DNA from: Sulfitobacter sp. M39
GTDB lineage: Bacteria > Pseudomonadota > Alphaproteobacteria > Rhodobacterales > Rhodobacteraceae
Direction: 5' to 3'
Assembly: GCF_021735935.1 (NCBI RefSeq)
Contig: NZ_WMDZ01000004.1
Span: 1 to 62,456 of the forward strand
DNA length: 62,456 nucleotides
Positions within the stretch are counted from its first letter, which is position 1. Each line of letters opens with the position of its first letter. A program made the position numbers and the translations under genes. Below are positions 3,245 to 62,456 of this stretch, in pieces. Under the pieces are notes generated by a model. The model was given only the letters and a program-made list of their open reading frames with translations, searched no databases and was not told the DNA's origin.

Positions 3245-3254
3245 GAATAAACTA

Positions 3255-12607: not shown

Positions 12608-12664
12608 ATGGCAGCACCTCGCAATTGGCCAGAAGCAGGACGAAAAATAGCGTGTTTGGAATAG
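12608..12664 (+). CDS. possible 18-codon leader peptide overlapping the wzy start
   Basis: GAGCGAGGAAATCT precedes an ATG at 12608, the best ribosome-binding site in this stretch, but that ATG opens only an 18-residue frame ending at 12662-12664. It overlaps the candidate TTG (12625) and GTG (12652) starts of the polymerase gene in another frame. It may couple translation into wzy, or the arrangement may reflect a small frame-disrupting change in an original wzy start. Small size makes it weakly supported. Confidence 0.3.
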   Translation: MAAPRNWPEAGRKIACLE

Positions 12665-15705: not shown

Positions 15706-15711
15706 TTGATT

Positions 15712-18185: not shown

Positions 18186-18190
18186 TTCCC

Positions 18191-20153: not shown

Positions 20154-20174
20154 TTTTTGGACGAGGAGTTTGCG

Positions 20175-31320: not shown

Positions 31321-32109
31321 ATGACAACACATCGCTATATTTTCGTTGGCGGTTTGCACCGCTCCGGCACCAGCCTCGTGGCGCGGCTGATCGGTGGTTT
31401 GCCCGGTGTCAGTGCGATCAACGCCGCCCCCGTGCCGGAGAATGAAGGCGTCTATCTGCAAGGGGCCATTCCTCATACCGCGCGGCATGGCATGCCCATG
31501 CATTTCGCTACCGATCCCGCGCAGCACCATATAGAAGGATCGCATTTCGACAGGTTAGAGACGCAAATGCGGTTGGAGCGGGACTGGGCACCGTATTTTA
31601 AAGAAGCCCCGTGGCGGGTCGAGAAGTCGCCCGTAAACCTGACACGGATGCGCCTGTATCAGCAACTCTTCCCCCTGTCGCAATTCGTCGTCGTGACCCG
31701 CCACCCAGAGGCGGTTGCTGCCGCCACCTCCAAATGGATCGACATGAACCCCGCTGCGATGATGAACCACTGGCTGGACGCCTACGACATCGTAAGGCGC
31801 GACATCGATTACCTGCATGCGGTGATCACCATCCGCTATGAAGATCTTGTCGCCGACCCTACCGCTACATTGGCGCGGTTGGCGGCGTTTTTAGATGTGG
31901 ACACGACACCCGCGCCGTCCGACATCCGCGATGGCAATCAGGATTATGCGGGGACGACCACGCCCTCTCCCGCTCAAGCGGAGCGTGCGGCGGCGTGGGG
32001 ATATGGTGTGGGATTGCAGGCTCAGCCTTGGGCTGGCGTGACCCGCCACCCTCTGCGGCGCATTGCTGAGAATGTTGAAGCGGCGGTGGGTGGGGCACCG
32101 TCGACCTGA
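31321..32109 (+). CDS. sulfotransferase family protein 4
   Basis: A 262-residue protein opening with YIFVGGLHRSGTSLVARLIG, a 5'-PAPS-binding loop. WRVEKSPVNLTRMRLYQQLF and QFVVVTRHPEAVAAATSKWI give the 3'-phosphate region, and VITIRYEDLVADPTATLARL is typical of the family. AAAGAGGGG precedes the ATG. It is a single gene between hipBA and the SbnA-like cassette, away from the main polysaccharide locus, and GC-rich unlike sulfotransferase 3. Its acceptor may be a product of the nearby minus-strand sugar operon. Confidence 0.83.
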   Translation: MTTHRYIFVGGLHRSGTSLVARLIGGLPGVSAINAAPVPENEGVYLQGAIPHTARHGMPMHFATDPAQHHIEGSHFDRLETQMRLERDWAPYFKEAPWRVEKSPVNLTRMRLYQQLFPLSQFVVVTRHPEAVAAATSKWIDMNPAAMMNHWLDAYDIVRRDIDYLHAVITIRYEDLVADPTATLARLAAFLDVDTTPAPSDIRDGNQDYAGTTTPSPAQAERAAAWGYGVGLQAQPWAGVTRHPLRRIAENVEAAVGGAPST

Positions 32110-41555: not shown

Positions 41556-41570
41556 CGTCAGGAAGCCCCG

Positions 41571-42884: not shown

Positions 42885-42890
42885 GGCTTC

Positions 42891-42918: not shown

Positions 42919-42926
42919 TTACGTTC

Positions 42927-46952: not shown

Positions 46953-47558
46953 CTACTTTGCGCCGCTCCTCAGCTTGGCATTGGCATGGTCTGCATCTGC
47001 CTGCGCCTTATCGGCAAGAACCCTCAGCTCCGAAGCCTCTTTCGTCAATGCTACCAATTGTTTGTTCAAATCCCGTTCACTTGTTCTTGCCTCTTTCGCT
47101 TCTTCCTTCGTCTCAGAAAGAGCACTTTTCAGGTCAGCAATACGCTCCGCCGATTGTGATTTCGCTAATTCAGCTGCGGCCTCACCGGCTTTGATTGTTT
47201 CCTGAAGCTTGGCGATATCCGCATCCGTCTTTTCCTTGGCTTCATCAGCCAGTCGAAGCTCATCCTCTAGCTTTGATATCTGTTTTTCCAACAGCATTCG
47301 TTCCCCAACGAAGGTACGCTTTGCATGATCTTTTGCTTCGATCCATACTCGCTTCAAAGTATGATCCATGGCCACGTTAACGCTGTTTGGTATGTCTGCC
47401 GATTGCTCTTGGAGCAATTTCCATTCTCGGAGTAACGGTGTGATGGTTTCAAGTGACCCACCACCAAGCACTTCCCGAATGTTCCTATTGGTCGGCTCAG
47501 TGCCCTGCTCGATCAATTGTTCAGCCGCTTGGAAAACCCGCTGTTGGTTAATTGCCAT
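46953..47558 (-). CDS. kfrA: KfrA-like plasmid DNA-binding coiled-coil protein
   Basis: A 201-residue protein. The N-terminal ~65 residues (QQRVFQAAEQLIEQGTEPTN, IREVLGGGSLETITPLLREW) form the KfrA_N winged-helix domain. The remainder is a long Ala/Lys/Glu-rich coiled coil (EKQISKLEDELRLADEAKEK onward). AGGAAGAA precedes the ATG. KfrA proteins autoregulate and help stable plasmid inheritance. Direct and inverted TTGTAAC/GTTACA repeats lie just upstream. Confidence 0.87.
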   Translation of the reverse strand: MAINQQRVFQAAEQLIEQGTEPTNRNIREVLGGGSLETITPLLREWKLLQEQSADIPNSVNVAMDHTLKRVWIEAKDHAKRTFVGERMLLEKQISKLEDELRLADEAKEKTDADIAKLQETIKAGEAAAELAKSQSAERIADLKSALSETKEEAKEARTSERDLNKQLVALTKEASELRVLADKAQADADHANAKLRSGAK

Positions 47559-47590
47559 TTCTTCCTGCCCTTAACTGTCTATCATTATAA

Positions 47591-47634
47591 ATTGTAACAC
47601 ATTGTAACGTTACTCACATTACAATATGTTACAT
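47591..47634. promoter_or_regulatory. KfrA operator region (TTGTAAC repeats)
   Basis: TTGTAAC occurs twice in direct orientation (47592-47598 and 47602-47608). An inverted CATTACAAT (47616-47624) and a GTTACA (47629-47634) follow. The cluster begins about 33 nt upstream of the kfrA start and is AT-rich, fitting an autoregulatory operator-promoter. Confidence 0.6.
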
Positions 47635-47925
47635 ATGGGATCTATCTAGGCGATTTCCGTCATATCCTTAGGCGAAGCAGCCTTCTCTTTGCAATAGCTG
47701 AGAACCCGGCTTTCATAGCCTGCTGGACCAGGCGGAGAGTATTGCATTAGCTAATTTACAGAGCGCATTGCTCCCAATTTTAGACAAACCCAACATGCCC
47801 ATAGGCAGCCGTGGACTCTGGAGCGATGCGCTGAATATGGTTTGCATTTATCCGAGAGAATGTTGTGCCCTAAGGCGGACCCGGAAAAATGTTGGGCACT
47901 GACGGCTTAATTTGGCCGTTACAGT
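47635..47925. other. non-coding region between kfrA and the recombinase gene
   Basis: About 290 nt with no supported gene or RNA. It separates the kfrA promoter region from the 3' end of the minus-strand recombinase operon. Confidence 0.4.
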
Positions 47926-49314
47926 TTACAACCTTGGGCGAGAATTCGTTTCATCATCGTTTGGGAAGCTTCGGGAATACTCTCGGACGGGGCTGCTAGC
48001 TTCAATACATACAATCTGTCGGGATCGTACCGACTGTGTTTTCTTCCGCCGGTTTGACCCACCGTAATGCCCTAGCGTACGCGTGCTTTGCTGTCCTAGG
48101 GCCGCAGCTCTCACTTGTTCATCAAATCGCCCTTCCGTCCTCAAAGCGTCGGCGAATGCATGCCTAAAAACATATGGTGTAACGTTATGCTTGAGACGAG
48201 GGAACGCGCGACTAGCAATTTTCTTGATGCGTTTCCCAAGACTATTGGTCAATAGCCGTTCCTGTTCGGCTATCGATAGCACCTTTCCAGATGATGAATA
48301 CGGAGCCCCCGCTTGACGCAACACTAAATTGTTTTCACCGGACCGCGAAATGTGGCGGTGTAGCCAATGCGCTTCAGGACTGTGACAGCCCAAGGTGATC
48401 TGGCGTATTGCCTGCCCCTTCGCTTCTACCGATAGCTCCTTTTTCGTGGCCGTTTTTGCTCCGTGAATTTTAAACGTAAGCCTTTTTTCCGCATCAACAT
48501 CCGCTAGCGAAACCTCAATGCCAAAACGGCATGAAAATTCGACCGGCCGGCTGCCTGTCAAAATCAATGTCGCAATCATTGCCCGCTGCAAATCGCCAGT
48601 GTTGTCATCAGCCAGCACAAACCGCCAGTAAGTGTCCAGCCAACAATAGGTCGGGTCCGATTTGCGTTTACGATCCTGATGCTGATTGAGCGCACGCAAC
48701 GACGCAATTTGGGCGTTGGGCTTTCTTCTGAATTTAGCCGATCGATCGAATTTATATTTTCTTAGCGCTTGATGTGATGGGTCCGGGGGTTGGGCCACAA
48801 GAAATGCCACCGCGCTCCGAAAACTATCAAATTCAGTCTTATTAAGCGGGCGTTGCGCGGCCACAAATCTGGCAACCAACGCACTATCGACGCTTTTGCG
48901 AAGCAATTCGTTGAGTTGGAGTGTCGCCTTTTCTGTTGGTTTTTGCGAGATATAGTGTTTCCAGAATCTGGGAGCACCTTCGATTACCGACTGCGCAGCT
49001 AGGCGTACCAAGGCAGATCTGTGGGCTTGACGGGTGTTAACGGTCTCCCACCCCCCTGCCCTATCGATTCTAAGGAAGGCCTCATACGGATTGTCGCGCG
49101 GGCTTTTTTTAGCAAGAGCTGCAGCGCGCACTTCATATTTCTGCCACGTACCGGAAGCAATGAGGTCTTCGGGAGCGTACAAGCGGTTCGCTTCTTGCGC
49201 AAATGCGTATGCGATCAAACTATTGGACAACAAGCGCTCCGAAGGCGTTGGGTTCCGCACCGCTATGGCAGCGGCTGCATCTTTTTGGCTTTTCATCGGA
49301 AAGCCAGTCACCAT
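47926..49314 (-). CDS. divergent tyrosine recombinase/integrase-like protein
   Basis: A 462-residue protein whose C-terminal half resembles tyrosine recombinases. TGSRPVEFSCRFG supplies the first catalytic Arg, TPYVFRHAFADALRTEG the second Arg region, and LGQQSTRTLGHYGGSNRRKK the final His and probable nucleophilic Tyr. The usual HxxR reads YVFR and the usual LGH reads LGQ, so it is non-standard. The N-terminal ~230 residues are of unknown type. The ATG at 49314 overlaps the previous gene by 7 nt; it is third in a coupled operon. A role in dimer resolution or in mobility are alternatives. Confidence 0.75.
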   Translation of the reverse strand: MVTGFPMKSQKDAAAAIAVRNPTPSERLLSNSLIAYAFAQEANRLYAPEDLIASGTWQKYEVRAAALAKKSPRDNPYEAFLRIDRAGGWETVNTRQAHRSALVRLAAQSVIEGAPRFWKHYISQKPTEKATLQLNELLRKSVDSALVARFVAAQRPLNKTEFDSFRSAVAFLVAQPPDPSHQALRKYKFDRSAKFRRKPNAQIASLRALNQHQDRKRKSDPTYCWLDTYWRFVLADDNTGDLQRAMIATLILTGSRPVEFSCRFGIEVSLADVDAEKRLTFKIHGAKTATKKELSVEAKGQAIRQITLGCHSPEAHWLHRHISRSGENNLVLRQAGAPYSSSGKVLSIAEQERLLTNSLGKRIKKIASRAFPRLKHNVTPYVFRHAFADALRTEGRFDEQVRAAALGQQSTRTLGHYGGSNRRKKTQSVRSRQIVCIEASSPVREYSRSFPNDDETNSRPRL

Positions 49315-49541
49315 GTCAGCGCTGCCTTCGCGGCACTTTGACCAACTTTCGCCAGAGCCTTAGCATTTGAGGCCGACTTCTCTGAAATGCCTTCCGCAAT
49401 TATATGATTGGCATTCTGCACATAGTGTTCACCCTTGGTCGTCGGGTGAGGATTGTTAATACGAAGACCAAAGCCCCAAGCACTAAGCGACGACGCGCGC
49501 CCCTTTAAGATCGATGAATTTAGAAAGGTATCTGCACTCAT
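49308..49541 (-). CDS. small hypothetical protein, middle gene of the recombinase operon
   Basis: A 77-residue protein from the ATG at 49541: MSADTFLNSSILKGRASSLS, NNPHPTTKGEHYVQNANHII, ending in an Ala/Lys-rich helix (SASNAKALAKVGQSAAKAAL). No family is recognised. It starts 1 nt after the upstream stop and overlaps the recombinase start by 7 nt, which strongly supports translation of all three genes as a set. Confidence 0.6.
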   Translation of the reverse strand: MSADTFLNSSILKGRASSLSAWGFGLRINNPHPTTKGEHYVQNANHIIAEGISEKSASNAKALAKVGQSAAKAALTW

Positions 49542-49542
49542 A

Positions 49543-49971
49543 TCAGCATGCCTTGTCCGTCCAATGCTCAAGAACACAGACCCAAGTCCGGTCATCAGAT
49601 TTTCCGAGGAACGGCAAAAGAGTGAGCCGAAGCCTTGCTGGGGTTAGTGCAATCTCCCCTACTAAATACCTCGGGAACGAAGCTGATGATTCCTGGATCA
49701 GATCCAGCGTCAGCGGTGAGTTCAAATAGGGTACTCCATGAATCGCGGCACAACAGCACATGCAACTCTTCGACAAATCACCTGCGACTTTGACTTGGAT
49801 TTTTCTTCCTATGGCATCCAGCAGCAAGTCGCATGCATAGGTCGCTTGTTTTGGATGACGCTGCAAAACGCCCGCGTATACCGGTCGCCGAAAACCTGCC
49901 AAGATTAGTTTTGCCGTTTCAAGCTTTAGCTTTTTAAATGGTGATTTATTGAGATCATTAGCCTGGGTCAT
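49543..49971 (-). CDS. hypothetical protein, first gene of the recombinase operon
   Basis: A 142-residue protein. The ATG at 49971 follows GGGGGAGTTAAT, a good ribosome-binding site; the longer frame from 50040 ignores it. The sequence includes SCMCCCAAIHGVPYLN, an unusual cysteine run, and LVGEIALTPARLRLTLLPFL. I recognise no family. Its position suggests a partner or regulator of the recombinase. Confidence 0.6.
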   Translation of the reverse strand: MTQANDLNKSPFKKLKLETAKLILAGFRRPVYAGVLQRHPKQATYACDLLLDAIGRKIQVKVAGDLSKSCMCCCAAIHGVPYLNSPLTLDLIQESSASFPRYLVGEIALTPARLRLTLLPFLGKSDDRTWVCVLEHWTDKAC

Positions 49972-50428
49972 ATTAACTCCCCCTCTTGGTAGGAGATTGT
50001 CACGACCCATTAACACAAAGTAAAAAGCTACCAGTGGCATCGTCCCAAGTGTGTGGCTGGCTCCAACGAGGATAAGACGGGTTTTGTAGATGTCGCACTA
50101 ACAGAGCAGTGCAGTACAAGACCTGGCACGTCAGCGATGGAGGAACATAAATCTGAACCAGCCGAAGGCTATAATCACGCAAGTTTGCGCTACGTGATTA
50201 CACCGATGCTCACTAAATTTCCGCGTTTTCGAGTTCCGTTTACTAAGGCGGAACAATTTAAATTCAACCCATAGGTGCATAAAGGAAGACGCCAGGTACA
50301 AGAGATTTGATAGTTGAGTAAAGTCCACCAATGCTAACACCGCATTTGCTGGACTTTGTCAGATAGTTTTTTAATGCCCTGTACGGCGTATGATCATCAA
50401 CCATTTAGGGCGTGGAAATTGGCCAGTG
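49972..50428. other. non-coding region
   Basis: About 455 nt upstream of the recombinase operon and downstream of the next minus-strand gene. It should hold the operon promoter, but no boxes or repeats stand out, and small frames on both strands lack features. Confidence 0.4.
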
Positions 50429-51043
50429 TCATGTCAAAGTATTGAAGACTGTTGTTCGGTCGAGCTCTCCATCTGCGTATTCTTCGAAGATCGCTGTCTC
50501 GCTAATCCGCACCTGGGTGTGTGGCATAAGGGATCTAAGAGTTTGTGCAACCCCGTTCACGCAACCGGAGCTGTCATCTAGTGTTGCCCAAGCACCAGTT
50601 ACCGTGATCTCGGAAGTTTTGAGATGCCTACTCAAGAACTCCGCTGCGTCATCTGGCCCATCGAAATATTCATCCAGGCAATATGAACGATTTTCCTGCC
50701 AGCCATCATAAGCTACCTCGCCCGTGTCGCAACCATACATACGAACTGCTGAAATCGAATTCGGATACCCCATGCGCTCGGCAGCGAGAATAGCATTGGA
50801 CAGCCCCTTCTCGATTACGTCGTCAAACCCGCTTTGGATTTCATCCGATAGAAAGCCATCGATCACCGCAAAGTGCCCGTCGTGTGATAGTATTTCCTCA
50901 GCAACTGCGTTGCGATATTCGCGCGCCTTACGCCCCAATTGGGATTCTGCTGATCCGAACATACCGCCAGGGAGGACAAGCACGAGGGTTTTCGGTAACT
51001 CAATATGGGTTGTTTTTGGCGAGATATTGAAGTCGTTGGTCAT
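50429..51043 (-). CDS. hypothetical protein
   Basis: A 204-residue protein from the ATG at 51043, preceded by AAGGAA; a longer frame to 51100 is less likely. It is acidic and probably cytoplasmic. Visible stretches are TLVLVLPGGMFGSAESQLGR, GHFAVIDGFLSDEIQSGFDD and YGCDTGEVAYDGWQENRSYC. No known domain is recognised. It stands alone between repC and the recombinase operon, so it may be a cargo or backbone gene. Confidence 0.6.
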   Translation of the reverse strand: MTNDFNISPKTTHIELPKTLVLVLPGGMFGSAESQLGRKAREYRNAVAEEILSHDGHFAVIDGFLSDEIQSGFDDVIEKGLSNAILAAERMGYPNSISAVRMYGCDTGEVAYDGWQENRSYCLDEYFDGPDDAAEFLSRHLKTSEITVTGAWATLDDSSGCVNGVAQTLRSLMPHTQVRISETAIFEEYADGELDRTTVFNTLT

Positions 51044-51100
51044 GGTATTTCCTTGTATGAGAAATTTGAAACTGCATTCTGTTCTTGAATGCTCGGTCAA

Positions 51101-51710
51101 ATTATCTCTGCAGGATTAAACTGAGATTTAAATTTTCGGGATTTGAAAGGGCTCATTCGTCAATGTTGGAGTCGAGGGCTTTTATCGCCCCACCGTCGGA
51201 CCTTGGAATTAAATAATGCCTTTACCCAGCTAGACCGCGGTCCATCCTATGGGCACGGGAGCAGAACCCATGTTTCACTGGTATATCTCGTTCGCAGCAT
51301 TTCAAGTGCACTTGGACTACCGAAATACACCACCAAGAGTTAATGGGGGAAGCTATTAGGTACTCTACCGTTATTCCTTATCGGATAGTAGTTCCTATAA
51401 GGGGCAGGGACGTCGCATCCAAATTTGGGATGCTCCTTCAACATCTGCAGCGGGCAGTACGCCCCTGTAAAAATTATCTCGTAAAGATACAAAAGCCCTA
51501 AGACATTTTAGTGTAAGCTACTTCTTTTCCTATATGTGCAGCAAGGTAGAATGGATCATAAGAACTTCGATCTTACGTATGCCTTGGTATTCAACAGAAC
51601 TTAGCCTGGAGAGTGGTGACCGGATCTTCTCTATGATCCATCCCGGTAGCGACCCACCATAGCAATCACCTTCGGTCACCTTAAACTGACATGCCGTCTA
51701 ACGCCGTGGA
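51101..51710. other. non-coding region downstream of repC
   Basis: About 610 nt with no convincing gene; a 66-codon plus-strand frame has no features. It ends at a parS-like palindrome next to the repC stop. It may carry replication-associated sequence, but no iterons are visible. Confidence 0.4.
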
Positions 51711-51734
51711 GTTTCTTGACCGCGGTCAAGAAAC
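51711..51734. promoter_or_regulatory. parS-like palindrome 1 (downstream of repC)
   Basis: A perfect 24-bp palindrome with core CTTGACCGCGGTCAAG, abutting the repC stop. A further half-site GCGGTCAAG lies at 51741-51749. The same 16-bp core occurs at 53046-53061 and 53087-53102, as expected for RepB-binding centromere sites in repABC plasmids. Confidence 0.85.
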
Positions 51735-52868
51735 TCATATGCGGTCAAGTTGTGCGCATAGCACTTTTTCAAAATAGGCATCGGGGTGCTTGATCGTGCC
51801 TGAGCGGGCTAGCAAGTAGTCGAAAACTAGAAGCAGTTTGCCTGCGCCCGCCATTTGGATGCTACGTTTCAATCTATCTTGTCCCACTCTAAGCAGTTTA
51901 CCGAGGTCATACAGGATGCGATTAAGGGTTTCCCCTGAGTGAGGAGGGACTGGGAAAAGCCCTGCTACATGGGTGAAGTCTTCCCAAGCCATTTTCTCTG
52001 GGTCACGGTTCATCTTGGCCTGAGTTTGCGACGTTTGTTTATCTTGTCCCGTTGCTTTAATAGCAATCTTATTAATATCTTTTTTTGTAGACTCTATGTG
52101 CCGGACATTTTGTCCGTTTGTGGCGGTCAGTCCGCCCGGATCCAGTGTACCTGACTGCTGTTCGACAGCTTGTAGACTTTCGTCTGCGCTAGCATTTGCT
52201 ACGGTGTGCTTCTCACCGTAGCAGGCCTCAGTGGCGGCGCCCATAGCTCGGAGCTCCGAGATAATGCTTAGAACTGCGTCCACGGTCAACGTCGCTCGAC
52301 GCAGTATATTTCTAAACATCTGTAAGGTAGAGAGTTTTACTTCATCGAGGCCTGTCTGCCGAAGGAGAGACGCACGGAGTGCTAATGCTTCGGTCTTCAG
52401 TGACCGTAGATGCTCGAGTTCTTCGGTAAGCTGTGACGCTTGCATTGAGAGAGTGTCGTATCGTTGGATCAAGGGCTTAAGGTCGATGCCGAAGGCGTCC
52501 TTAATCACACCTCCATATCGTAGCGGGAAGCGTTTCCCATTTGCAGAACTCTTTCGCTCAATTAGTTCAGCCGCTGAGAGGCGCCCAAGGCTGCGACGAA
52601 GTGTTCTTTCGTCAAGACCATTGGCCCGCTCCGACAACGAAGCGTTCGATGGGAAGACGACGGTAAGTGCAATGTGCTGGCTATCCAGACCTCTACGTTT
52701 CTCACGGGGAAGGAAGCTAATGAGGGCGGTCAACACGGCTAGGTCGTTGGTCGTAAGGCCGAGCTGTTTTCTCAAAATGCGAACCGGGCCTAACAGTTCG
52801 TATGGGTTAGGGTAGGGCAAGTCTGTCAGTTCCGCCAAGGCGGTTCGTGCTTTGTTTCGATGTTTCAT
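51735..52868 (-). CDS. repC: replication initiator RepC
   Basis: RepC of repABC replicons, 377 residues from the ATG at 52868. LLGPVRILRKQLGLTTNDLA, VLTALISFLP and LTVVFPSNASLSERANGLDE match the conserved winged-helix N-terminal domain, with EKMAWEDFTHVAGLFPVPPH in the C-terminal part. A TTG-initiated extension to 52940 is possible, but it would overlap the counter-transcribed RNA promoter, so I prefer the ATG. RepC binds the origin, usually inside its own gene. Translation is probably limited by the antisense RNA encoded opposite its leader. Confidence 0.92.
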   Translation of the reverse strand: MKHRNKARTALAELTDLPYPNPYELLGPVRILRKQLGLTTNDLAVLTALISFLPREKRRGLDSQHIALTVVFPSNASLSERANGLDERTLRRSLGRLSAAELIERKSSANGKRFPLRYGGVIKDAFGIDLKPLIQRYDTLSMQASQLTEELEHLRSLKTEALALRASLLRQTGLDEVKLSTLQMFRNILRRATLTVDAVLSIISELRAMGAATEACYGEKHTVANASADESLQAVEQQSGTLDPGGLTATNGQNVRHIESTKKDINKIAIKATGQDKQTSQTQAKMNRDPEKMAWEDFTHVAGLFPVPPHSGETLNRILYDLGKLLRVGQDRLKRSIQMAGAGKLLLVFDYLLARSGTIKHPDAYFEKVLCAQLDRI

Positions 52869-52911
52869 GGTGTTTCGGAAGAAAAAGCTTCCCCGTTCAC
52901 CGCCAGCGGTG

Positions 52912-52940
52912 TTGAAATCGATTCGATTAGGAGGTATCAA
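52912..52940 (+). promoter_or_regulatory. promoter of the repABC counter-transcribed RNA
   Basis: TTGAAA (52912-52917), a 17-nt spacer and TATCAA (52935-52940) form a good sigma-70-type promoter on the plus strand, opposite to repABC. Transcription from it would start near 52947 and run into the terminator at 52961-53003. Confidence 0.7.
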
Positions 52941-52946
52941 TTAGGT

Positions 52947-53003
52947 GTCGAGACTAATTGAGGCCCTTCGGAAGTATCGCTTTCGGGGGGTCTTTCTTTT
53001 TCT
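52947..53003 (+). ncRNA. counter-transcribed antisense RNA (ctRNA) of the repABC replicon
   Basis: A short RNA of about 55 nt is predicted between the plus-strand promoter and the terminator in the repB-repC spacer. Position, orientation and size are those of the antisense RNAs that pair with the repC leader and control copy number and incompatibility in repABC plasmids. The exact 5' end is inferred. Confidence 0.75.
52961..53003 (+). terminator. intrinsic terminator of the ctRNA
   Basis: AGGCCCTTCGGAA (52961-52973) pairs with TTTCGGGGGGTCT (52981-52993) over 13 positions including G-U pairs, with a 7-nt loop, followed by TTCTTTTTCT. It is a clear rho-independent terminator on the plus strand. 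Confidence 0.8.
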
Positions 53004-53042
53004 AGCCGGTCCTCCTTTCGTTTGCTGCTCGTGGTTTTTTGA

Positions 53043-53064
53043 CGTCTTGACCGCGGTCAAGACG
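53043..53064. promoter_or_regulatory. parS-like palindrome 2 (repB-repC spacer)
   Basis: A perfect 22-bp palindrome with core CTTGACCGCGGTCAAG in the repB-repC spacer, about 40 nt beyond the ctRNA terminator and 8 nt before the repB stop codon. Confidence 0.85.
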
Positions 53065-53072
53065 AGGGGTTG

Positions 53073-53996
53073 TTACTCTGGCCCATCTTGACCGCGGTCA
53101 AGAAGCTCAATTATCAACTTGCGCACAGCCTCCTCCACACGTGGGGCAAGATCTGCGTCAGCGTCGATAGTGATACGGTTACCCCTTCGCCCGACCTTCA
53201 CGCGCTCGTCGGGGTGCGCCGAGGGAGCCGATGGCTTGGTGGCCGTTAGCAAAGTAACCGCTGCTTCTAGACGATCGGGGCCTGGTAAGTCGCGGGGGAT
53301 TTTGGTGGCAATTTCGCGAGCTCTTGCGCCGTCTTTCTCACACAACCGAAAGAGTTTTTCCCAGACCCGTCGACCAACGCCGTGCGCAGGTCCAATAGCC
53401 TGAATCAATTCAGAAGGAATGCCTGTCGCGATACGGTTCATCCGTGAGACAAGCGATTCATCTATCTGAAGTGCCCGATACGCTACGGTCTGAGCGTTCT
53501 TACGTGCCTCGTCTGTCTTCCCAAGCTCCCGAATGATGCCGGCTACAAATAGAGCCCTTTCGATGAACGATGGATCTTGCCGGGCATTGTTTTCTACACC
53601 TTGGGCAATGAGTGCTTCCTCGTCGGTCATCTGCATGACCGTTGCGCGCACCTTCTGACTAAGTTCGCGGCAGGCGAGAAGCCTGCGGCGACCATAGACA
53701 ATCTCAAGGGGTCCATTCGAGGTTCTGCGAACCAAAACTGGAACTTTTTGACCGTGCTCACGGATCGACGAGACAAGATCATCCAGCCCATCGCTGGGAT
53801 CGATGCGATCCATGACCGCGGACATCTGTATGGCGTTCGGGTCTATCAGCCGTGTGGCGTGTTTATCTTCTTCAAGAATGGATGCTTGTGCGCGAGCTAC
53901 GGTCGGGCTCGTGCGGCTTGTATCCAAATTTTCTTCCGAAGGCGTCGCTTCATCCATAGCATTCTTTAGGGAATTTCCGAAGACTTTACGTGCCAT
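53073..53996 (-). CDS. repB: partitioning protein RepB (ParB family)
   Basis: A 307-residue protein from the ATG at 53996 (MARKVFGNSLKNAMDE). IDPSDGLDDLVSSIREHGQK, VPVLVRRTSNGPLEIVYGRR and ALIAQGVENNARQDPSFIER are the ParB nuclease/CTPase and HTH regions; the C-terminal part is a RepB dimerisation domain. RepB binds the CTTGACCGCGGTCAAG sites and works with RepA in segregation. The start overlaps the repA end by 11 nt. One parS palindrome lies inside its own 3' coding end, encoding part of LLDRGQD. Confidence 0.94.
   Translation of the reverse strand: MARKVFGNSLKNAMDEATPSEENLDTSRTSPTVARAQASILEEDKHATRLIDPNAIQMSAVMDRIDPSDGLDDLVSSIREHGQKVPVLVRRTSNGPLEIVYGRRRLLACRELSQKVRATVMQMTDEEALIAQGVENNARQDPSFIERALFVAGIIRELGKTDEARKNAQTVAYRALQIDESLVSRMNRIATGIPSELIQAIGPAHGVGRRVWEKLFRLCEKDGARAREIATKIPRDLPGPDRLEAAVTLLTATKPSAPSAHPDERVKVGRRGNRITIDADADLAPRVEEAVRKLIIELLDRGQDGPE
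53086..53103. promoter_or_regulatory. parS-like palindrome 3 (inside the repB 3' end)
   Basis: An 18-bp palindrome, TCTTGACCGCGGTCAAGA, lies within the repB reading frame 22 nt from palindrome 2. The close pair here and the single copy after repC make three RepB-binding candidates. Confidence 0.85.
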
Positions 53997-55167
53997 CACT
54001 ACGCCCCCATGCCTTGAGGATTTCTCGTTCGACCTCATCTGTCACGCGAGACACGGATTCGGTCGCGCGCTCGTATGTTCGGCGGTTCACGTCGCGAGGT
54101 TCTACCTCAAATATGCTCTGTTGAGTATTTGCAGCGTCACCCACGGCAGTTGATTTGAGGAACTCAGCAGATAGCACCGCATCTCCAAGCACTGTCCGAA
54201 GCAGAGACGAAATTTGAACCTGCGGCCCATCGGTATTTTCGTAGCGTGTAATGAGAAGTCTTACGAAGTTCAGCCCGTGTTCGGGGGCATGCGTCTCGAC
54301 TACGCCCATCAAGTTACTCGCCATCGCCAAAAAGCTCGCAAGCGACATGACGTCAAGCATAGAGGCGTTCAGCGGGATCAGTACCCCAGTCGATGCAAAA
54401 AGAGCCGAGATCACCGAGAAGTTCAGCTGCGGTGGGGTATCAAACAGTACCACATCATATTGGCTCAAGACTGGCTCAAGTGCATCCCTGATGCGGCTAT
54501 GGAACGTAGTGGTGCCTTCTCTGAAGCTCAGTGCGACCTCGAACTCGTACTCCATGATGTCCATGGATGCCGGGATCAGGTCGACAGTCGGGAAGTTCGT
54601 TTTGCGAATGATTTCTGCCGCGGGAAGCGGATCATCGGATTTGATCAGATCGTATGACGTTGGCATATCCGGATCAAGCTCGGGCGTAACACCGAACAGA
54701 TTCGTCAGGCTAGCTTGGCTATCAAGGTCGATCAACAAGACCCGGTACCCTCGCAGTCCCAATAGTTGCCCGATGTGAGCAACAGATGATGTCTTGGCGG
54801 AGCCACCCTTTAGGTTGAAGATCGTTAAAACCTGACAAGCTTCTCCCGTTTTTCTGTGCGGATGCTCTTCTGGTTTGATCCTTCCGGTCTCAAGAAGCAC
54901 GCGTTGTGCCTCGACCATCTCCTCTGCGGAGAAGCTACGGCGATTGCCACCCTCTAAAATCCCTTCGGGAAAGCCTTCGAGGTTTGCCACATGATGGCGA
55001 AAGGTGTTCTGATTAATGCGAAGCAGCTCCGCTGCTTCCCGCATAGCGAAGCGGCGGAGGCCCTTCTGGGCGTCCGGTGGGAAGGTTTCCTGCGCATGTT
55101 CATGCAACCGGTTACCCAGTCGCTTGGACATGACTTCAAATCTCTGGGAAGCTCGAATCCCGCTCAT
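53986..55167 (-). CDS. repA: partitioning protein RepA (ParA ATPase)
   Basis: A 393-residue protein. An N-terminal HTH-like region (RRFAMREAAELLRINQNTFR) precedes the deviant Walker A loop TIFNLKGGSAKTSSVAHIGQ, Walker A' VLLIDLDSQASLTNLF and VVLFDTPPQLNFSVISALFA. RepA drives plasmid partition and represses the operon. The ATG at 55167 follows TTGAGGG; a TTG at 55179 is an alternative. It is the first gene of repABC on the minus strand. Confidence 0.95.
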   Translation of the reverse strand: MSGIRASQRFEVMSKRLGNRLHEHAQETFPPDAQKGLRRFAMREAAELLRINQNTFRHHVANLEGFPEGILEGGNRRSFSAEEMVEAQRVLLETGRIKPEEHPHRKTGEACQVLTIFNLKGGSAKTSSVAHIGQLLGLRGYRVLLIDLDSQASLTNLFGVTPELDPDMPTSYDLIKSDDPLPAAEIIRKTNFPTVDLIPASMDIMEYEFEVALSFREGTTTFHSRIRDALEPVLSQYDVVLFDTPPQLNFSVISALFASTGVLIPLNASMLDVMSLASFLAMASNLMGVVETHAPEHGLNFVRLLITRYENTDGPQVQISSLLRTVLGDAVLSAEFLKSTAVGDAANTQQSIFEVEPRDVNRRTYERATESVSRVTDEVEREILKAWGRSDGT

Positions 55168-55179
55168 TGATGCCCTCAA

Positions 55180-56749: not shown

Positions 56750-58636
56750 ATGCACATGAACAGTATTCACGACCTTTCGAGGGCGAAAAAGCGGGCCATT
56801 TTTTTGGCCGTCGACAGCATGCTCGTCCCTCTTGCTCTCTATTGCGCCTTTGCTTTCCGGTACGGGACGGGCACGCCCTGGATGCCGATCTCGGAGAGTT
56901 GGGTGCTGTTCCCCGTAATTTCGATGTGGGGTGTTGGTATCATCTGGGCACTGCGGCTCCACCGCATCAAGCTTAACGCTTTTGATACCCATTCCATGTC
57001 AAATATCGGCGTAGCGTCGCTATTGATCGCCTTCAGTGCAGTGATGCTCAGTTATTGGTTGAAGCTGTCGGCGCCGCGGTCCGTACCGCTTCTTTTGGGG
57101 CTGTTCTTCTGCATCTTCGCTGTCGCGGCGCGCGTGGTGGGGCTGAACCTGCTGCGTTGGCTGTCAGAGCGCGGCGGTAACCGCAAACCCGTCGCGATTT
57201 ACGGGGCAGGGGCCGCGGGTATCCAATTGGCCGCCGCCCTGAGGCAGGCCAGCGAAGCGCGGCCTGTGTTCTTCATCGACGACAACCCAAACCTACACGG
57301 TCTCATGGTCGCAGGGCTGCCTGTTCATGATCCTTCTAAACTAGGGAAGCTGGTCAAAGCGCGCGATATCGAACAAATTCTGCTGGCCGTACCATCGATG
57401 GCCAAGAAGCGTAGGGACGAGTTGATCTCTAAGCTCAGCGTCTATGAAGTCGAGGTGCAGGTGCTGCCGTCCTATGTGGACCTGATGTCTGGCAAAGGAC
57501 TGGCTGATAGCCTGCGCACGGTCGCACCGGATCAGCTTTTGGGCCGCGATAAGGTCGATCTTGATACGCCAGAAATTGCAAAGACATATGCCGGTCGCGT
57601 TGTGATGGTGACCGGGGCAGGGGGCTCGATTGGGTCCGAGCTGTGTCGGCAGCTTCTGAACTGTAACCCGGCGCGGATTGTCTTGTTCGAGCAAGGTGAG
57701 TTCCAGCTGTACTCGATTGATCAGGAGTTGCAGCCCGAGGCGAAAGCCACGGGGATTCCTATTGTCAGCCGTCTTGGGTCGGTCACCAACAAGGCGCGCG
57801 TCGCTGGGGTGATTGCTGAGGAGGGGGTCGAGATTGTCCTCCACGCCGCGGCCTATAAACACGTGCCCCTCGTCGAGGAAAACGAGCTAGAAGGCGCACG
57901 TAACAATGTGCTCGGCACCCAAGTCGTTGCGGAAGCCGCCGCCGAGGCGAAGCTGGAGCGCTTCATTCTGGTCTCCACCGACAAAGCCGTACGGCCGACA
58001 AATATCATGGGAGCCACCAAACGGATGGCCGAACTGGTGGTGCAGGATGTCCAGACACGTAATGCTAGTACCAAGTTTGCCATGGTGCGCTTCGGAAACG
58101 TACTTGGGTCGTCCGGGTCTGTCCTGCCGCTGTTCCAAAAACAGATCGCTCGCGGGGGGCCGGTCACGGTGACCCATAAGGATGTCACGCGTTTCTTTAT
58201 GACGATCCCAGAGGCCGCGCGTCTGGTTTTGCTGGCTGGTGCCTATGCTAGAGGTAGCGATGTGTTCGTGCTAGACATGGGGGAGCCACAGAAGATCATC
58301 GACATCGCCAAGCGGATGATAACGCTCTCTGGTCGGAAGGTTAAGGATTCGGAGACGGGGGAGGGAGATATCGAGATTAAGGTGACTGGTTTGCGGCCGG
58401 GTGAGAAATTATACGAAGAGCTGCTGATCGACGACGACAGCTTGTTGCCGACACCCCATGCGAAGATCCTCCGAGCGCAGGAGGGAATGCTGAGCCAAAT
58501 TGAAGTGGCTGCAATGGTGCGAGAACTGAATAAATCAATTATAGATACTGATACTGGCCGGCTTCGAAGATTGATTGCCTTGAAGGTTGAGGGCTATCAC
58601 GTGCAAGAGGGAAGTCCTCGCACCATAGGAGGCTAA
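56750..58636 (+). CDS. membrane-bound nucleotide-sugar 4,6-dehydratase (FlaA1/WbpM/PglF family)
   Basis: A 628-residue protein with four N-terminal membrane helices (residues ~15-120) and a CoA-binding-like domain (VAIYGAGAAGIQLAAAL). The C-terminal SDR domain has VVMVTGAGGSIGSELCRQLL, LHAAAYKHVPLVEENE and LVSTDKAVRPTNIMGATKRM, in which the usual catalytic Tyr of YxxxK is replaced by Met, as in this family. It converts UDP-GlcNAc to UDP-4-keto-6-deoxy-GlcNAc at the membrane. It would feed the PglE-like aminotransferase at 3255 or a QuiNAc/FucNAc branch. It is full length. Confidence 0.93.
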   Translation: MHMNSIHDLSRAKKRAIFLAVDSMLVPLALYCAFAFRYGTGTPWMPISESWVLFPVISMWGVGIIWALRLHRIKLNAFDTHSMSNIGVASLLIAFSAVMLSYWLKLSAPRSVPLLLGLFFCIFAVAARVVGLNLLRWLSERGGNRKPVAIYGAGAAGIQLAAALRQASEARPVFFIDDNPNLHGLMVAGLPVHDPSKLGKLVKARDIEQILLAVPSMAKKRRDELISKLSVYEVEVQVLPSYVDLMSGKGLADSLRTVAPDQLLGRDKVDLDTPEIAKTYAGRVVMVTGAGGSIGSELCRQLLNCNPARIVLFEQGEFQLYSIDQELQPEAKATGIPIVSRLGSVTNKARVAGVIAEEGVEIVLHAAAYKHVPLVEENELEGARNNVLGTQVVAEAAAEAKLERFILVSTDKAVRPTNIMGATKRMAELVVQDVQTRNASTKFAMVRFGNVLGSSGSVLPLFQKQIARGGPVTVTHKDVTRFFMTIPEAARLVLLAGAYARGSDVFVLDMGEPQKIIDIAKRMITLSGRKVKDSETGEGDIEIKVTGLRPGEKLYEELLIDDDSLLPTPHAKILRAQEGMLSQIEVAAMVRELNKSIIDTDTGRLRRLIALKVEGYHVQEGSPRTIGG

Positions 58637-58950
58637 TGTAATATTTTCAATTCGGTTAGTTTGGACGATAATTTCAATCATGCTTTCTGTATGGCGTTCC
58701 AAGTACCACTTGGCCCTTTGCATATTTAATTATTTTCTAGCCTTAGACGTATTTATTCGATTGTATTTTTTGAATAGCACTGAACTCACCAAACTAAAAA
58801 CGCGATATTTATGGGGTTGATTGCTGCCCTAGTAATGTAAATAAGCTTCCTGTCGTACCCTAAGGCTTTGACATATCTGGGAGCCGCAACACTAATCTTC
58901 ACTCCGAACCACCAAAATGTAATTTTTCAAAAGAATACTGCGAGACGCCC
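58637..58950. other. AT-rich leader before the PAPS synthetase gene
   Basis: A 314-nt AT-rich stretch with no supported gene. A minus-strand 62-codon frame overlapping the dehydratase end is not convincing. It probably contains a promoter, as the flanking genes are GC-rich, but no boxes can be assigned. Confidence 0.35.
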
Positions 58951-60663
58951 ATGCAAACGCCCAACCTTGCTCCGATCCCTGAACTCTATGTCTCTTACGA
59001 CTCGGCGCAGAAGCTGAAGGTGGAAGCTGGCGATCTGGTCAGCCATGACCTGACGCCGCGCCAGATCTGCGATCTAGAGCTGCTGATGAACGGTGGCTTC
59101 AACCCTCTTAAGGGTTTCTTGACCGAAGAAGACTATGACGGTGTTGTCGAAAACATGCGTCTGGCGGATGGGTCGCTGTGGCCGATGCCGATCAACCTTG
59201 ATGTGTCCGAAAAGTTTGCCGAAGGGCTCGAGATCGGGCAGGACATTGCGCTGCGCGATCAGGAAGGCGTGATTTTGGCGGTTATGACCGTCACCGACCG
59301 CTGGGTCCCGAACAAGGCCCGCGAAGCAGAGAAAGTCTTTGGCGCGGACGACAGCGCGCATCCGGCGGTGAACTATCTGCACAACACCGCGGGCAACGTC
59401 TATCTGGGCGGCCCTGTGACTGGCATCCAGCAGCCCGTCCACTATGATTTCAAGGCGCGTCGCGACACGCCGAACGAGCTGCGCGCCTATTTCCGCAAGA
59501 TGGGCTGGCGCAAGGTCGTGGCCTTCCAGACCCGCAACCCCCTGCACCGCGCGCACCAGGAACTGACCTTCCGCGCCGCGCGTGAAGCGCAGGCGAACCT
59601 GCTGATCCACCCCGTTGTCGGCCTGACCAAGCCCGGCGATGTGGACCACTTTACCCGCGTGCGCTGCTACGAGGCCGTGCTGAACAAATACCCCGCCGCC
59701 ACCACCGCGATGAGCCTGCTGAACCTCGCCATGCGCATGGCCGGCCCCCGCGAGGCCGTCTGGCACGGTCTGATCCGCAAGAACCACGGCTGCACCCATT
59801 TCATCGTGGGCCGCGACCACGCGGGCCCCGGCAAGAACTCTGCCGGTGAGGATTTCTATGGCCCCTATGACGCGCAGGATCTGTTCCGCGCCCATGAGCA
59901 AGAAATGGGCATCGAAATGGTCGACTTCAAACATATGGTTTGGGTCGCCGAGCGCGCACAATACGAAGCGATTGACGAGATCGAAGACAAGGATGACATC
60001 ACCATCCTCAACATCTCGGGCACCGAGTTGCGTCGCCGTCTGCAGGAAGGGCTGGAAATCCCCGAATGGTTCTCCTTCCCCGAGGTGGTTGAAGAGCTGC
60101 GCCGCACCAAGCCGCCGCGCAACAAGCAGGGCTTTACCGTCTTCTTCACCGGTTTCTCAGGCTCGGGGAAATCGACAATCGCCAATGCTTTGATGGTTAA
60201 ACTGATGGAGATGGGCGGCCGTCCCGTCACGCTGCTGGATGGGGACATCGTTCGCAAGAATCTGTCGTCGGAATTGGGCTTTAGCAAAGAGCACCGCGAT
60301 CTGAACATCCGCCGCATCGGCTATGTCGCCTCCGAGATCACCAAGAACGGCGGCATCGCCATCTGCGCGCCGATTGCGCCCTACGCCACCACCCGCCGCG
60401 CCGTGCGCGAAGACGTGGAAAGCTTTGGCGCCTTCGTCGAGGTGCATGTCGCCACCTCCATCGAGGAATGCGAACGCCGCGACCGCAAGGGTCTGTACAA
60501 GCTGGCCCGTGAAGGCAAGATCAAGGAATTCACAGGGATTTCAGATCCCTATGACGTTCCAGAAACCCCGGAACTGCGCGTTGAAACAGAGAATGTCGAC
60601 GTCGACAATTGCGCCCATCAGGTGCTGCTCAAGCTGGAAAGCATGGGGCTGATTAAGGGGTAA
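58951..60663 (+). CDS. bifunctional sulfate adenylyltransferase / adenylylsulfate kinase (PAPS synthetase)
   Basis: A 570-residue fusion. Residues ~1-385 are ATP sulfurylase, with FQTRNPLHRAHQELTFRAAR (QxRNPxHxxH) and HFIVGRDHAGPGKNSAG. Residues ~395-570 are APS kinase, with P-loop FFTGFSGSGKSTIANALMVK and LDGDIVRKNLSSELGFSKEH. Together they turn sulfate and ATP into PAPS, the donor for the four sulfotransferases on this plasmid. GC content and codon use are more housekeeping-like than those of its neighbours, suggesting a chromosomal origin. Placing this fusion inside a polysaccharide locus points to glycan sulfation rather than cysteine synthesis. Confidence 0.95.
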   Translation: MQTPNLAPIPELYVSYDSAQKLKVEAGDLVSHDLTPRQICDLELLMNGGFNPLKGFLTEEDYDGVVENMRLADGSLWPMPINLDVSEKFAEGLEIGQDIALRDQEGVILAVMTVTDRWVPNKAREAEKVFGADDSAHPAVNYLHNTAGNVYLGGPVTGIQQPVHYDFKARRDTPNELRAYFRKMGWRKVVAFQTRNPLHRAHQELTFRAAREAQANLLIHPVVGLTKPGDVDHFTRVRCYEAVLNKYPAATTAMSLLNLAMRMAGPREAVWHGLIRKNHGCTHFIVGRDHAGPGKNSAGEDFYGPYDAQDLFRAHEQEMGIEMVDFKHMVWVAERAQYEAIDEIEDKDDITILNISGTELRRRLQEGLEIPEWFSFPEVVEELRRTKPPRNKQGFTVFFTGFSGSGKSTIANALMVKLMEMGGRPVTLLDGDIVRKNLSSELGFSKEHRDLNIRRIGYVASEITKNGGIAICAPIAPYATTRRAVREDVESFGAFVEVHVATSIEECERRDRKGLYKLAREGKIKEFTGISDPYDVPETPELRVETENVDVDNCAHQVLLKLESMGLIKG

Positions 60664-60902
60664 CGTTTAGCTCGCAAACATAGTTAACACACTTCTATCG
60701 CTCGGGATACCGACCACGCGAAAATGCGAACGAATAGAGTATTATTTAAACTTATAGTTGGCATTATTCCCAAGGCTGGGAAATGGCGTCCAGTATTGGC
60801 TTATGTAAACTTCACAGTGCAACTGACGTCGCCAATTCGCTTAGGGATCTTCAATTATCATCAGATGGATCTGATCATCCAATTTTTATAAAGGTATCTG
60901 CT
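60664..60902. other. intergenic region before capE
   Basis: About 240 nt with no gene. A 40-codon upstream extension of the capE frame (60783-60902) is rejected because the ATG at 60903 has a better ribosome-binding site and matches family starts. Confidence 0.4.
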
Positions 60903-61949
60903 ATGAACACCCCGTTACGGCAAAAGCCCAATCGCGTACTGATTACCGGAGGGACAGGTTCCTTCGGCAAAACTATGCTACGCGACCTTTTGGCGGATGG
61001 GGTTGAGGAGGTCCGGATTTTAAGTCGTGACGAAGAGAAACAAGATGCGCTGCGGAACGACCTGCGGGACGATCGAGTTCGGTATTATATTGGAGACATT
61101 CGAGATCGTGGGGCGGTTGATCGAGCCGTGCAGGGCGTCGATGCTATTTTTCATGCTGCGGCCTTGAAGCAAGTGCCAAGTTGCGAATTTTTTCCGCATG
61201 AAGCAGTTCTTACCAATGTAATCGGCTCTGAAAACGTGATCCGATCAGCAATTGCAGAAAAAGTTCAAAGTCTGGTTTGCCTGTCGACTGATAAAGCGGT
61301 GTTGCCTGTGAACGCCATGGGTATGACGAAAGCATTGATGGAAAAAACGGCGCAAGCAGCTGCTCGAACTTTGGGTCCAAAAGGCAATACGATCATTTCA
61401 TGCGTACGGTATGGCAATGTGATGTACTCACGGGGGTCTGCTATTCCGCTTTTCCTACGGCAGATAAAAGCTGGAAATCCGATTACAGTGACAGAGCCAA
61501 CTATGACAAGGTTCTTGATGCCGCTACGATACAGTGTCGCTCTGGTTCATCATGCCTTTCAACATGCTAATCAGGGCGACCTCTTCATTAAGAAAGCCCC
61601 TGCGTCCACCATCGCTGACCTAGTAGCCGCCTTGACTGAGTTGTTTAATGTCCCCAATCACCCGGTTGAGGTGATCGGTTGGCGTCACGCTGAAAAGCTT
61701 TACGAAACGCTTGCAAGTGCGCAAGAGCTTGGTAGCTCGGAGGATATGGGCGACTATTACCGGATCATTCTGGATACGCGAGATCTCAACTACAAACCGT
61801 ATTTTTCAGAAGGCGAAGCTGAAACAAAGAAACTAGAAGACTATCATTCTCACAATACGCAACAGCTTGATGTCGACGGGGTAAAAGAACTTCTTCTCAC
61901 CCTTCCCGAAATACAGGCCGAATTGGACAGCTGGAACGGAGCACGTTGA
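60903..61949 (+). CDS. capE: UDP-GlcNAc 4,6-dehydratase/5-epimerase, CapE/WbjB type
   Basis: A 348-residue SDR enzyme: RVLITGGTGSFGKTMLRDLL at the NAD site, FHAAALKQVPSCEFFPHEAV, and CLSTDKAVLPVNAMGMTKAL with the Met-for-Tyr MxxxK pattern of this group. CapE inverts C5 and makes UDP-2-acetamido-2,6-dideoxy-beta-L-arabino-hexos-4-ulose, the first FucNAc-branch intermediate. The ATG at 60903 follows AAAGG. The stop overlaps the capF ATG (ATGA). Confidence 0.93.
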   Translation: MNTPLRQKPNRVLITGGTGSFGKTMLRDLLADGVEEVRILSRDEEKQDALRNDLRDDRVRYYIGDIRDRGAVDRAVQGVDAIFHAAALKQVPSCEFFPHEAVLTNVIGSENVIRSAIAEKVQSLVCLSTDKAVLPVNAMGMTKALMEKTAQAAARTLGPKGNTIISCVRYGNVMYSRGSAIPLFLRQIKAGNPITVTEPTMTRFLMPLRYSVALVHHAFQHANQGDLFIKKAPASTIADLVAALTELFNVPNHPVEVIGWRHAEKLYETLASAQELGSSEDMGDYYRIILDTRDLNYKPYFSEGEAETKKLEDYHSHNTQQLDVDGVKELLLTLPEIQAELDSWNGAR

Positions 61950-62456
61950 TGCGTATTGTTGTCACTGGGGCCCGTGGTTTAATCGGCTGGCATGCGCATG
62001 CTCGATTGCATGCCGCTAACTGTGCGGCCGACTTCAAAGGCGAACCAAAGCCATACGATATCGTTGCGCTAGACCATACTGCATTTGACGACGATGCAGC
62101 CCTAAATTTGGCGCTTAACGGAGCTCAAGCTGTGCTTCACTTTGCGGGGGTAAATCGTGCTCCCGATAATGAGGTGGAAACTGCGAACCCCGCAATCGCG
62201 ATGCGATTAGCTGAGGCGTGTAAAGCTGTCAGAGCTACACCCCAAATTGTCTATGCGAATTCAACACACGCCGTGAATGAAACACCATATGGGAGATCTA
62301 AACGCATTGCCGGCGAGGTGTTATCGCAAGTTGGTGGCAAATACACCAATATGGTCCTTCCACATATCTTCGGTGAATGTGCGCGGCCTAACTATAATAA
62401 TGTCACAGCAACGTTCATTGAAGCGGTCATCAAGGGAGAGACACCGGTAATCAACC
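61949..62456 (+). CDS. capF: CapF/WbjC-type UDP-sugar 3-epimerase/reductase, N-terminal part (3' partial)
   Basis: The frame runs off the window end after 169 codons. MRIVVTGARGLIGWHAHARL is the NADPH-binding opening, VLHFAGVNRAPDNEV and YANSTHAVNETPYGRSKRIA (Tyr-Lys pair) mark the reductase, and HIFGECARPNYNNVTATFIE is typical of WbjC. The start overlaps the capE stop. The missing C-terminal part matches the open frame at 1-612. One leftover base at 62456 puts a plain end-to-start join out of frame. Confidence 0.93.
   Translation, partial: MRIVVTGARGLIGWHAHARLHAANCAADFKGEPKPYDIVALDHTAFDDDAALNLALNGAQAVLHFAGVNRAPDNEVETANPAIAMRLAEACKAVRATPQIVYANSTHAVNETPYGRSKRIAGEVLSQVGGKYTNMVLPHIFGECARPNYNNVTATFIEAVIKGETPVIN

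Follow-up and report, generated by a model that had tools for sequence, protein, structure and literature searches.

The sulfate-activation genes nodPQ of S. meliloti are located on plasmids. Mesorhizobium produces nodPQ-dependent sulfated polysaccharides, and sulfated rhizobial lipopolysaccharide (LPS) is known (PMC6192434, in the sections drawn on here). In the capsule cluster of Vibrio sp. KMM 8419, second copies of cysC, cysN and cysD stand with three sulfotransferase genes, a combination that its authors regard as a hallmark of sulfated polysaccharide synthesis, and the cluster of Cobetia marina KMM 1449 contains cysN/cysC, cysD and cysQ (PMC11641403, PMC11766843, both as excerpted). Here we describe a glycan locus of Sulfitobacter sp. 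M39 that carries three sulfotransferase genes and adjoins a fused gene for a synthetase of the sulfate donor 3'-phosphoadenosine 5'-phosphosulfate (PAPS). It lies on contig NZ_WMDZ01000004.1 (62,456 nucleotides; hereafter the window), which is the whole 62-kb contig C4; the genome comprises four contigs and 3.34 Mb.

As far as the excerpted descriptions go, the locus resembles the Vibrio and Cobetia clusters in combining PAPS, sulfotransferase and dTDP-rhamnose genes in one polysaccharide locus, and the Vibrio PAPS genes are second copies as well. It fits this known pattern, in which a polysaccharide locus has PAPS and sulfotransferase genes of its own, so the description of the combination as uncommon in bacteria, made in an earlier prediction from the sequence (the original prediction), was too strong. 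The published clusters are chromosomal and use cysN/cysD/cysC and an ABC exporter, whereas the present one is on a plasmid, with a single fused gene, apparently of host-lineage origin, and a Wzx/Wzy-type locus. The rhizobial parallel, in which nodPQ goes with sulfated LPS or Nod factor, is on the excerpted account that sulfate-activation genes are needed there for a sulfated surface polysaccharide; it differs in relying on nodPQ/CysDN and not on a fused enzyme, and in its role in symbiosis. With the rhamnose-operon biofilm plasmids of Roseobacteraceae the window shares a complete rml operon and glycosyltransferases. Two relatives of the window plasmid, CB2047 (pSpoCB-4) and S1704, appear together with rfbABCD in a Sulfitobacter plasmid paper whose main text, in the portion drawn on, does not contain the word sulfotransferase (PMC13386836), and the excerpted genome paper of Sulfitobacter faviae mentions no sulfotransferase (PMC10221251). 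Our searches, with subscription journals mostly outside their scope, found no literature linking a biofilm plasmid to a sulfotransferase, and among the matches listed no title or abstract start described sulfation on roseobacter plasmids.

We consider it rather probable that a Wzx/Wzy-type glycan cassette, reaching from ~60783 across the contig ends to 13959, is an exchangeable unit set in a conserved Sulfitobacter plasmid backbone, that this cassette makes a sulfated surface polymer, and that the synthetase is an accessory PAPS booster. The genes concerned are as follows.

56750..58636, + strand: membrane-type nucleotide-sugar 4,6-dehydratase (Polysacc_synt_2 with CoA_binding_3)
58951..60663, + strand: PAPS synthetase, fused ATP sulfurylase/adenosine 5'-phosphosulfate (APS) kinase (PUA_2, ATP-sulfurylase and APS_kinase domains in that order; NF004040)
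60783..61949, + strand: CapE-like UDP-GlcNAc 4,6-dehydratase/5-epimerase of the N-acetyl-L-fucosamine (L-FucNAc) pathway (TIGR04130 best family, 432 bits, below the cut-off of 730)
61946..62455, + strand: CapF/WbcJ-like reductase, N-terminal portion truncated at the contig end (positions 1-156 of the NF047837 profile, score below cut-off)
1..612, + strand: CapF/WbcJ-like reductase, C-terminal portion truncated at the contig start (positions 184-368 of the NF047837 profile, score below cut-off; PF14667)
612..1754, + strand: CapG/WecB-like UDP-GlcNAc 2-epimerase (PF02350; TIGR00236 over cut-off)
1767..2354, + strand: initiating sugar-phosphate transferase (Bac_transf)
2354..3244, + strand: sulfotransferase ST1 (PF13469, 73.2 bits)
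3222..4385, + strand: DegT/DnrJ/EryC1/StrS sugar aminotransferase (domain match)
4389..5576, + strand: glycosyltransferase, GT4 type (domain match)
5501..6733, + strand: glycosyltransferase, GT4 type, listed start probably too early (domain match)
6730..7647, + strand: sulfotransferase ST2 (PF13469, 80 bits)
7644..8534, + strand: CE4-like (NodB-type) deacetylase (homology to polysaccharide deacetylases; its ATG overlaps the ST2 stop by 4 bases)
8778..9728, + strand: sulfotransferase ST3 (PF13469, 69.1 bits)
9732..10691, + strand: FemAB/GNAT-like acyltransferase (PF13480)
10698..12296, + strand: Wzx-like flippase (12 predicted hydrophobic membrane segments, without a Pfam match)
12625..13959, + strand: Wzy-like polymerase (PF14296, 27.1 bits, cut-off 26.6; TIGR04370, 63.2 bits, cut-off 40)

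Contig ends left aside, the genes from capE through the deacetylase overlap or lie at most 12 bases apart; the overlaps of ST1 and ST2 with adjacent genes measure 1 to 23 bases. All four sulfotransferase genes of the window exceed the curated PF13469 cut-off; three of them (2354, 6730, 8778) do sit in one tight Wzx/Wzy-type locus, as had been proposed. By eye, a 5' motif is visible in ST1-ST4 and the serine of the 3' motif in ST1 and ST3 but not in ST2 or ST4; we take both motifs to be PAPS-binding. Genome-wide, nine genes match PF13469 or PF03567, four of which sit on the 1.9% of the genome that the window represents (binomial P about 1e-5). The cassette also has an initiating transferase. 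Among the other assembly functions originally named, the polymerase exceeds its family cut-offs, while the flippase is recognized by its 12 membrane segments and the deacetylase by homology, both having no Pfam match.

A related cassette occurs in a genome of another genus (G417). One run on its contig C3 contains relatives of CapE (76% amino acid identity to the window), CapG (55%), the two cassette glycosyltransferases GT4a and GT4b, ST1 (45%), the initiating transferase, the aminotransferase (51%), ST2 (39%), the deacetylase (35%), Wzy (26%) and Wzx (28%), along with a PF00685 sulfotransferase and two methyltransferases; CapF, ST3 and FemAB have no match in it. No synthetase was found in the 39 kb around the G417 cassette, the single copy of that genome being on contig C1. 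The gene overlaps of ST1 and ST2, and the retention of CapE, CapG, ST1, ST2, the deacetylase, Wzy and Wzx in G417, make a sulfated polymer containing FucNAc and uronate, as originally predicted, a fair reading of the sequence.

We think it quite improbable that a protein or a small molecule, and not a glycan, is the acceptor for the cassette sulfotransferases. In a sequence-profile search, the best PDB matches of ST2 were 4gox, whose chain is labelled Polyketide synthase, together with tyrosylprotein sulfotransferases and the CurM sulfotransferase, which would suit such acceptors; these matches are distant and leave the acceptor unfixed, and ST1 and ST2 overlap glycan-assembly genes and stay with them in G417.

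We compared the window with five public Sulfitobacter plasmids (W028, S1704, CB2047, DSM110277 and OXR199) by protein search at E 1e-8. The features that belong to the backbone, beyond the dehydratase, are these.

15706..19081, + strand: rmlC, rmlB, rmlD and rmlA, for dTDP-L-rhamnose (domain matches)
19131..21446, + strand: SDR epimerase and TviB UDP-GlcNAc 6-dehydrogenase (TviB at 20157 over cut-off)
31321..32109, + strand: sulfotransferase ST4, in a conserved backbone module outside the glycan cassette (PF13469 over cut-off)
46953..55179, - strand: plasmid maintenance region with KfrA_N, a recombinase-like gene, RP-C (RepC), ParB and ParA (domain matches)

The dehydratase at 56750 (94-96% amino acid identity), the rml genes (76-97%), the Tvi pair (68-99%) and the tested genes of the module running from ST4 to an SRAP protein, among whose TRAP genes only DctP was tested, have relatives on all five plasmids, some of these backbone matches being partial in S1704 and OXR199 (those of the module in S1704). 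For the replication genes, close relatives occur in S1704 and CB2047 alone. Within the cassette, ST1, ST3, GT4a, the deacetylase, FemAB, Wzx and Wzy have no match on the five plasmids at that threshold; GT4b has one distant match, and the ST2 matches fall on relatives of ST4. Moderate relatives exist for CapE (55%) and CapG (54%) in CB2047 and for the aminotransferase in three plasmids (70-71%). At the DNA level, positions 1-13959 gave no match in a near-mode search of the plasmid collection. With the backbone conserved and the middle genes lacking matches, this middle part resembles an exchangeable cassette, and the synthetase, present on three of the six Sulfitobacter plasmids (window included) with partly different neighbours, resembles an accessory at its edge. 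Cassette sulfotransferases number three in the window, one each in W028, S1704 and CB2047 (the last having no synthetase) and none in DSM110277 and OXR199. The fourth sulfotransferase of the original prediction is a real gene over the cut-off, and belongs to this separate backbone module, not to the glycan locus.

The claim that the contig is a plasmid is upheld by its RepC-type, ParA/ParB and KfrA genes. For the sugar nucleotides, rmlCBDA, TviB and CapG were identified as predicted, with CapE and CapF below their family cut-offs; the SDR epimerase/dehydratase at 19131 falls below the cut-off of every family listed and is TviC-like by position alone, which leaves the second uronate enzyme tentative. 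These assignments suggest an N-acetylhexosaminuronate. The dehydratase at 56750 is, we assume, of the WbpM/FlaA1 type.

In the pathway that we propose, CapE/F/G, the dehydratase, the aminotransferase and the Rml and Tvi enzymes would supply activated sugars, from which the initiating transferase and the two cassette GT4 enzymes would build a lipid-linked repeat. Sulfation by ST1-ST3 would take place in the cytoplasm with PAPS as donor, and ST2 would probably work with the coupled deacetylase; Wzx would then flip and Wzy polymerise the repeat, and export or ligation would proceed via chromosomal genes. The functional-looking plasmid synthetase would add PAPS, or free its supply from chromosomal sulfur control, which would be helpful and not required.

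The synthetase itself is well identified. The predicted fused ATP sulfurylase/APS kinase gene was confirmed by its domains and by an NF004040 score of 1043 bits against a cut-off of 669. It lies between the dehydratase and the CapE-like gene, as placed originally; part of capF and all of capG fall outside 56750-62456, the interval to which they had been assigned. The NPLHRAH, GRDHAG, GFSGSGKST, DGD and FTGISDPY motifs are all intact, and each is found in 120-128 of the 128 sequences aligned, that of the window among them; we take them to be catalytic in the two halves, the kinase P-loop among them. That P-loop is altered, as aligned, in the best PDB match, 1i2d, presumably the fungal enzyme with a regulatory kinase-relic domain. 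We considered whether the C-terminal domain is only a regulatory relic of this fungal style, and rejected this in view of the intact P-loop.

The host chromosome has a synthetase copy of its own, 99% identical in amino acids and 96.9% in nucleotides, which adjoins a pyridine-nucleotide oxidoreductase gene, with a PurK-like gene nearby. The GC content is 60.2% for the plasmid synthetase and 60.4% for the sampled 19-kb chromosome stretch, against 38-52% for the cassette genes. From these sequences the plasmid gene appears to be a recent copy of the chromosomal gene of the host lineage. A fused synthetase is usual in the genus, being found in 22 of 23 other genomes (in G021 in two contig pieces; the sole exception, G004, is 64% complete), and at E 1e-100 it occurs in 125 of 150 family genomes (in G094 as one gene in two contig-edge pieces). 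The S. pontiacus plasmids W028 and S1704 carry copies 97.0-97.2% identical to that of the window. Among these three Sulfitobacter plasmid copies there are 2 or 3 amino acid changes versus 47-51 base changes, a ratio of nonsynonymous to synonymous substitution rates (dN/dS) of 0.012-0.019; given this low ratio the plasmid synthetase looks functional. The chromosome further holds a PAPS-reductase-family gene and CysQ. We therefore rejected the idea of a dedicated, self-sufficient sulfation plasmid, given the chromosomal synthetase, PAPS-reductase-family gene and CysQ, and the G417 cassette without a synthetase.

We then asked whether the synthetase accompanies sulfotransferases on plasmids. A tblastn search at E 1e-100 of 72,556 records gave 13 synthetase plasmids, 10 of which were compared with 17 Rhodobacterales rml records without a synthetase; the latter were hand-picked, about one per species, from 60 listed of 359, and the choice was not blind, since the Tateyamaria row already showed a sulfotransferase. 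Sulfotransferases were counted as PF13469 or PF03567 matches over the Pfam cut-off, PF00685 alone being excluded. They were found in 9/10 records with and 15/17 without the synthetase, three of the 15 being marginal (W17, W20, W22) and two (W12, W14) having only the backbone ST4 type. Most of the sampled plasmids thus carry sulfotransferases, which do not depend on a synthetase nearby. The expected company of synthetase, sulfotransferases and glycan genes on other plasmids was seen in part: glycan genes neighbour the synthetase in two Sulfitobacter, the Pontibrevibacter and the Roseobacter litoralis B14 records. In addition, 7 of the 60 rml records listed have an annotated sulfotransferase that is covered by the rml operon match (e.g. 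NZ_CP135444.1, NZ_CP019319.1). Outside this set, a plasmid of Serratia sp. JSRIV004 has a fused PAPS synthetase, a TauE/SafE transporter, a sulfotransferase and cysQ in a row (13508-18392).

Several results weigh against a sulfated-polymer cassette with its own PAPS booster. On rml plasmids, sulfotransferases occur in 6/7 records with and 15/17 without the synthetase (Fisher P = 1), and we rejected the synthetase as a predictor of sulfotransferases there. In the Sulfitobacter set, cassette sulfotransferases are present on 3/3 plasmids with and 1/3 without it, at P = 0.2 only. In Qingshengfaniella the annotated neighbours of the synthetase are sugar-catabolism genes, and in Paracoccus they are insertion sequences, not glycan-assembly genes; in R. 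denitrificans pTB2 the single sulfotransferase match is ~24 kb away. The low dN/dS may instead mirror chromosomal history if the plasmid copies were recently captured or converted. Finally, the plasmid has no Poly_export gene, both matches in the genome being chromosomal. The idea of a self-supplied pathway finds no support: the chromosome carries the same enzyme, the G417 cassette has none within the 39 kb, and most synthetase-free rml plasmids sampled have sulfotransferases.

The same results bear on the possibility that the plasmid synthetase is a hitchhiker, or a simple dosage copy of a sulfur-assimilation enzyme, captured by chromosomal recombination and with no special tie to the sulfotransferases. 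This we regard as somewhat unlikely, while recognizing what speaks for it: the block common to the plasmid and the 19-kb chromosome stretch is the synthetase gene alone (58934-60664), in the tree the copies from plasmids and chromosomes radiate as an unresolved star, 15 of the 17 plasmids lacking the gene do have sulfotransferases, and a same-genus genome (G008:C5:19993-21693) holds a second full-length fused copy with one in-frame TGA. The TGA makes that copy look like a decaying duplicate. Against a hitchhiker stands the recurrence of the gene on three Sulfitobacter plasmids (window included) with partly different neighbours, and a separate clade formed by the copies of three Roseobacter plasmids may speak against it too. 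Full-length second copies are also rare, G000 being the only case among the 150 family genomes (G041 and G084 have partial second matches). The accessory booster remains our favoured reading of the plasmid synthetase.

The lack of a Poly_export gene on the plasmid also bears on the final product. That the cassette makes an LPS O-antigen, and not a free exopolysaccharide or capsule, is a real possibility to which we give slightly less than even chances, with sulfate then placed on LPS as in rhizobia, where sulfated LPS is known (PMC6192434, sections drawn on here). A chromosomal Wzy_C-family gene (ligase or polymerase) at C1:442031 would suit it, but this family does not separate ligase from polymerase, and the two chromosomal Poly_export genes could serve export.

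The ST2-deacetylase pair is the least expected part of the locus, and may be novel. A Pfam search with the window deacetylase gave no match at E up to 5, and its G417 relative scored 17.8 bits for PF01522, below the cut-off of 23.1. There were 1133 homologues at E 0.001, and among the best 120 of these most of the farther ones are annotated PF01522; in the best 10 of 17 plasmid records, nearly all archaeal, identity to annotated polysaccharide deacetylases was 26-31%. Across 39 aligned sequences His117 and His121 (HxxxH) are invariant and Asp13-Phe-Glu15 nearly so; HxxxH is presumably the metal motif of CE4 deacetylases. A PDB profile search with this alignment returned a single match at E 0.47, which we judged to be chance. 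The two genes remain coupled in G417, with a 2-base gap. By hand count, for 19 of 45 close deacetylase homologues from metagenomes (P0002-P0046) the longest contig has the same size as that of a listed ST2 homologue, which suggests linkage there, indicated rather than proven. At E 1e-10 the deacetylase occurs in 4 of 394 family genomes, its own included; two of the others have weak matches and no ST2 match in the 20 kb fetched.

A speculative and, in our view, unlikely reading of this pair is a two-gene bacterial N-deacetylase/N-sulfotransferase (NDST), in which the deacetylase would free an amino group on an N-acetylated sugar of the repeat and ST2 would sulfate that nitrogen, giving marine alphaproteobacteria an N-sulfated surface polymer, with a PAPS booster on some plasmids. 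It is equally conceivable that the two enzymes have different residues as targets and that the sulfate is placed on oxygen. The likeness to NDST is the pairing of deacetylase and sulfotransferase, here drawn from gene coupling; in NDST both activities are in one polypeptide, whereas here there are two overlapping genes (6730-7647 and 7644-8534) and the deacetylase is CE4-like. Heparosan-specific deacetylases group nearer a CE18 enzyme than CE4 (PMC13353177, as excerpted), and neither CE4 nor NodB occurs as a word in the NDST1 structure paper (PMC10864358). If the pair did N-sulfate sugars, bacteria would have a counterpart of a heparin-making step, and the pair would offer simple enzymes for that step.

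More broadly, the window offers a clear test case for whether roseobacter plasmids alter cell-surface charge by sulfation and for why a second sulfate-donor enzyme is kept. The 15 of 17 synthetase-free records, two with the backbone type only, suggest that sulfotransferases are ordinary on rhamnose-operon plasmids of the order.

Some further observations concern the contig as a whole. When its ends are abutted, the two capF parts (61946-62456 and 1-612) are, from their coordinates, one base out of frame, so either bases are missing or extra at the contig ends or capF is broken. A scan for promoters and terminators gave 13 promoter-like sites versus 4.7 expected, from which we draw no interpretation. 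Four glycosyltransferase genes at 23135-28436, one fused to a sucrose-6-phosphatase-like domain, have relatives on all five related plasmids (88-98% amino acid identity). The module at 31321-45377 comprises ST4, SbnA-like and LysA-like enzymes, an FAD/NAD protein, a thiolase, an AMP-binding enzyme, TRAP and BCCT transporters and the SRAP protein. Transposase-like remnants (14154-15400, by eye) and an IS3-like transposase (21489-22241) flank the rml-tvi block, which on the W028 plasmid has the opposite orientation relative to the dehydratase.

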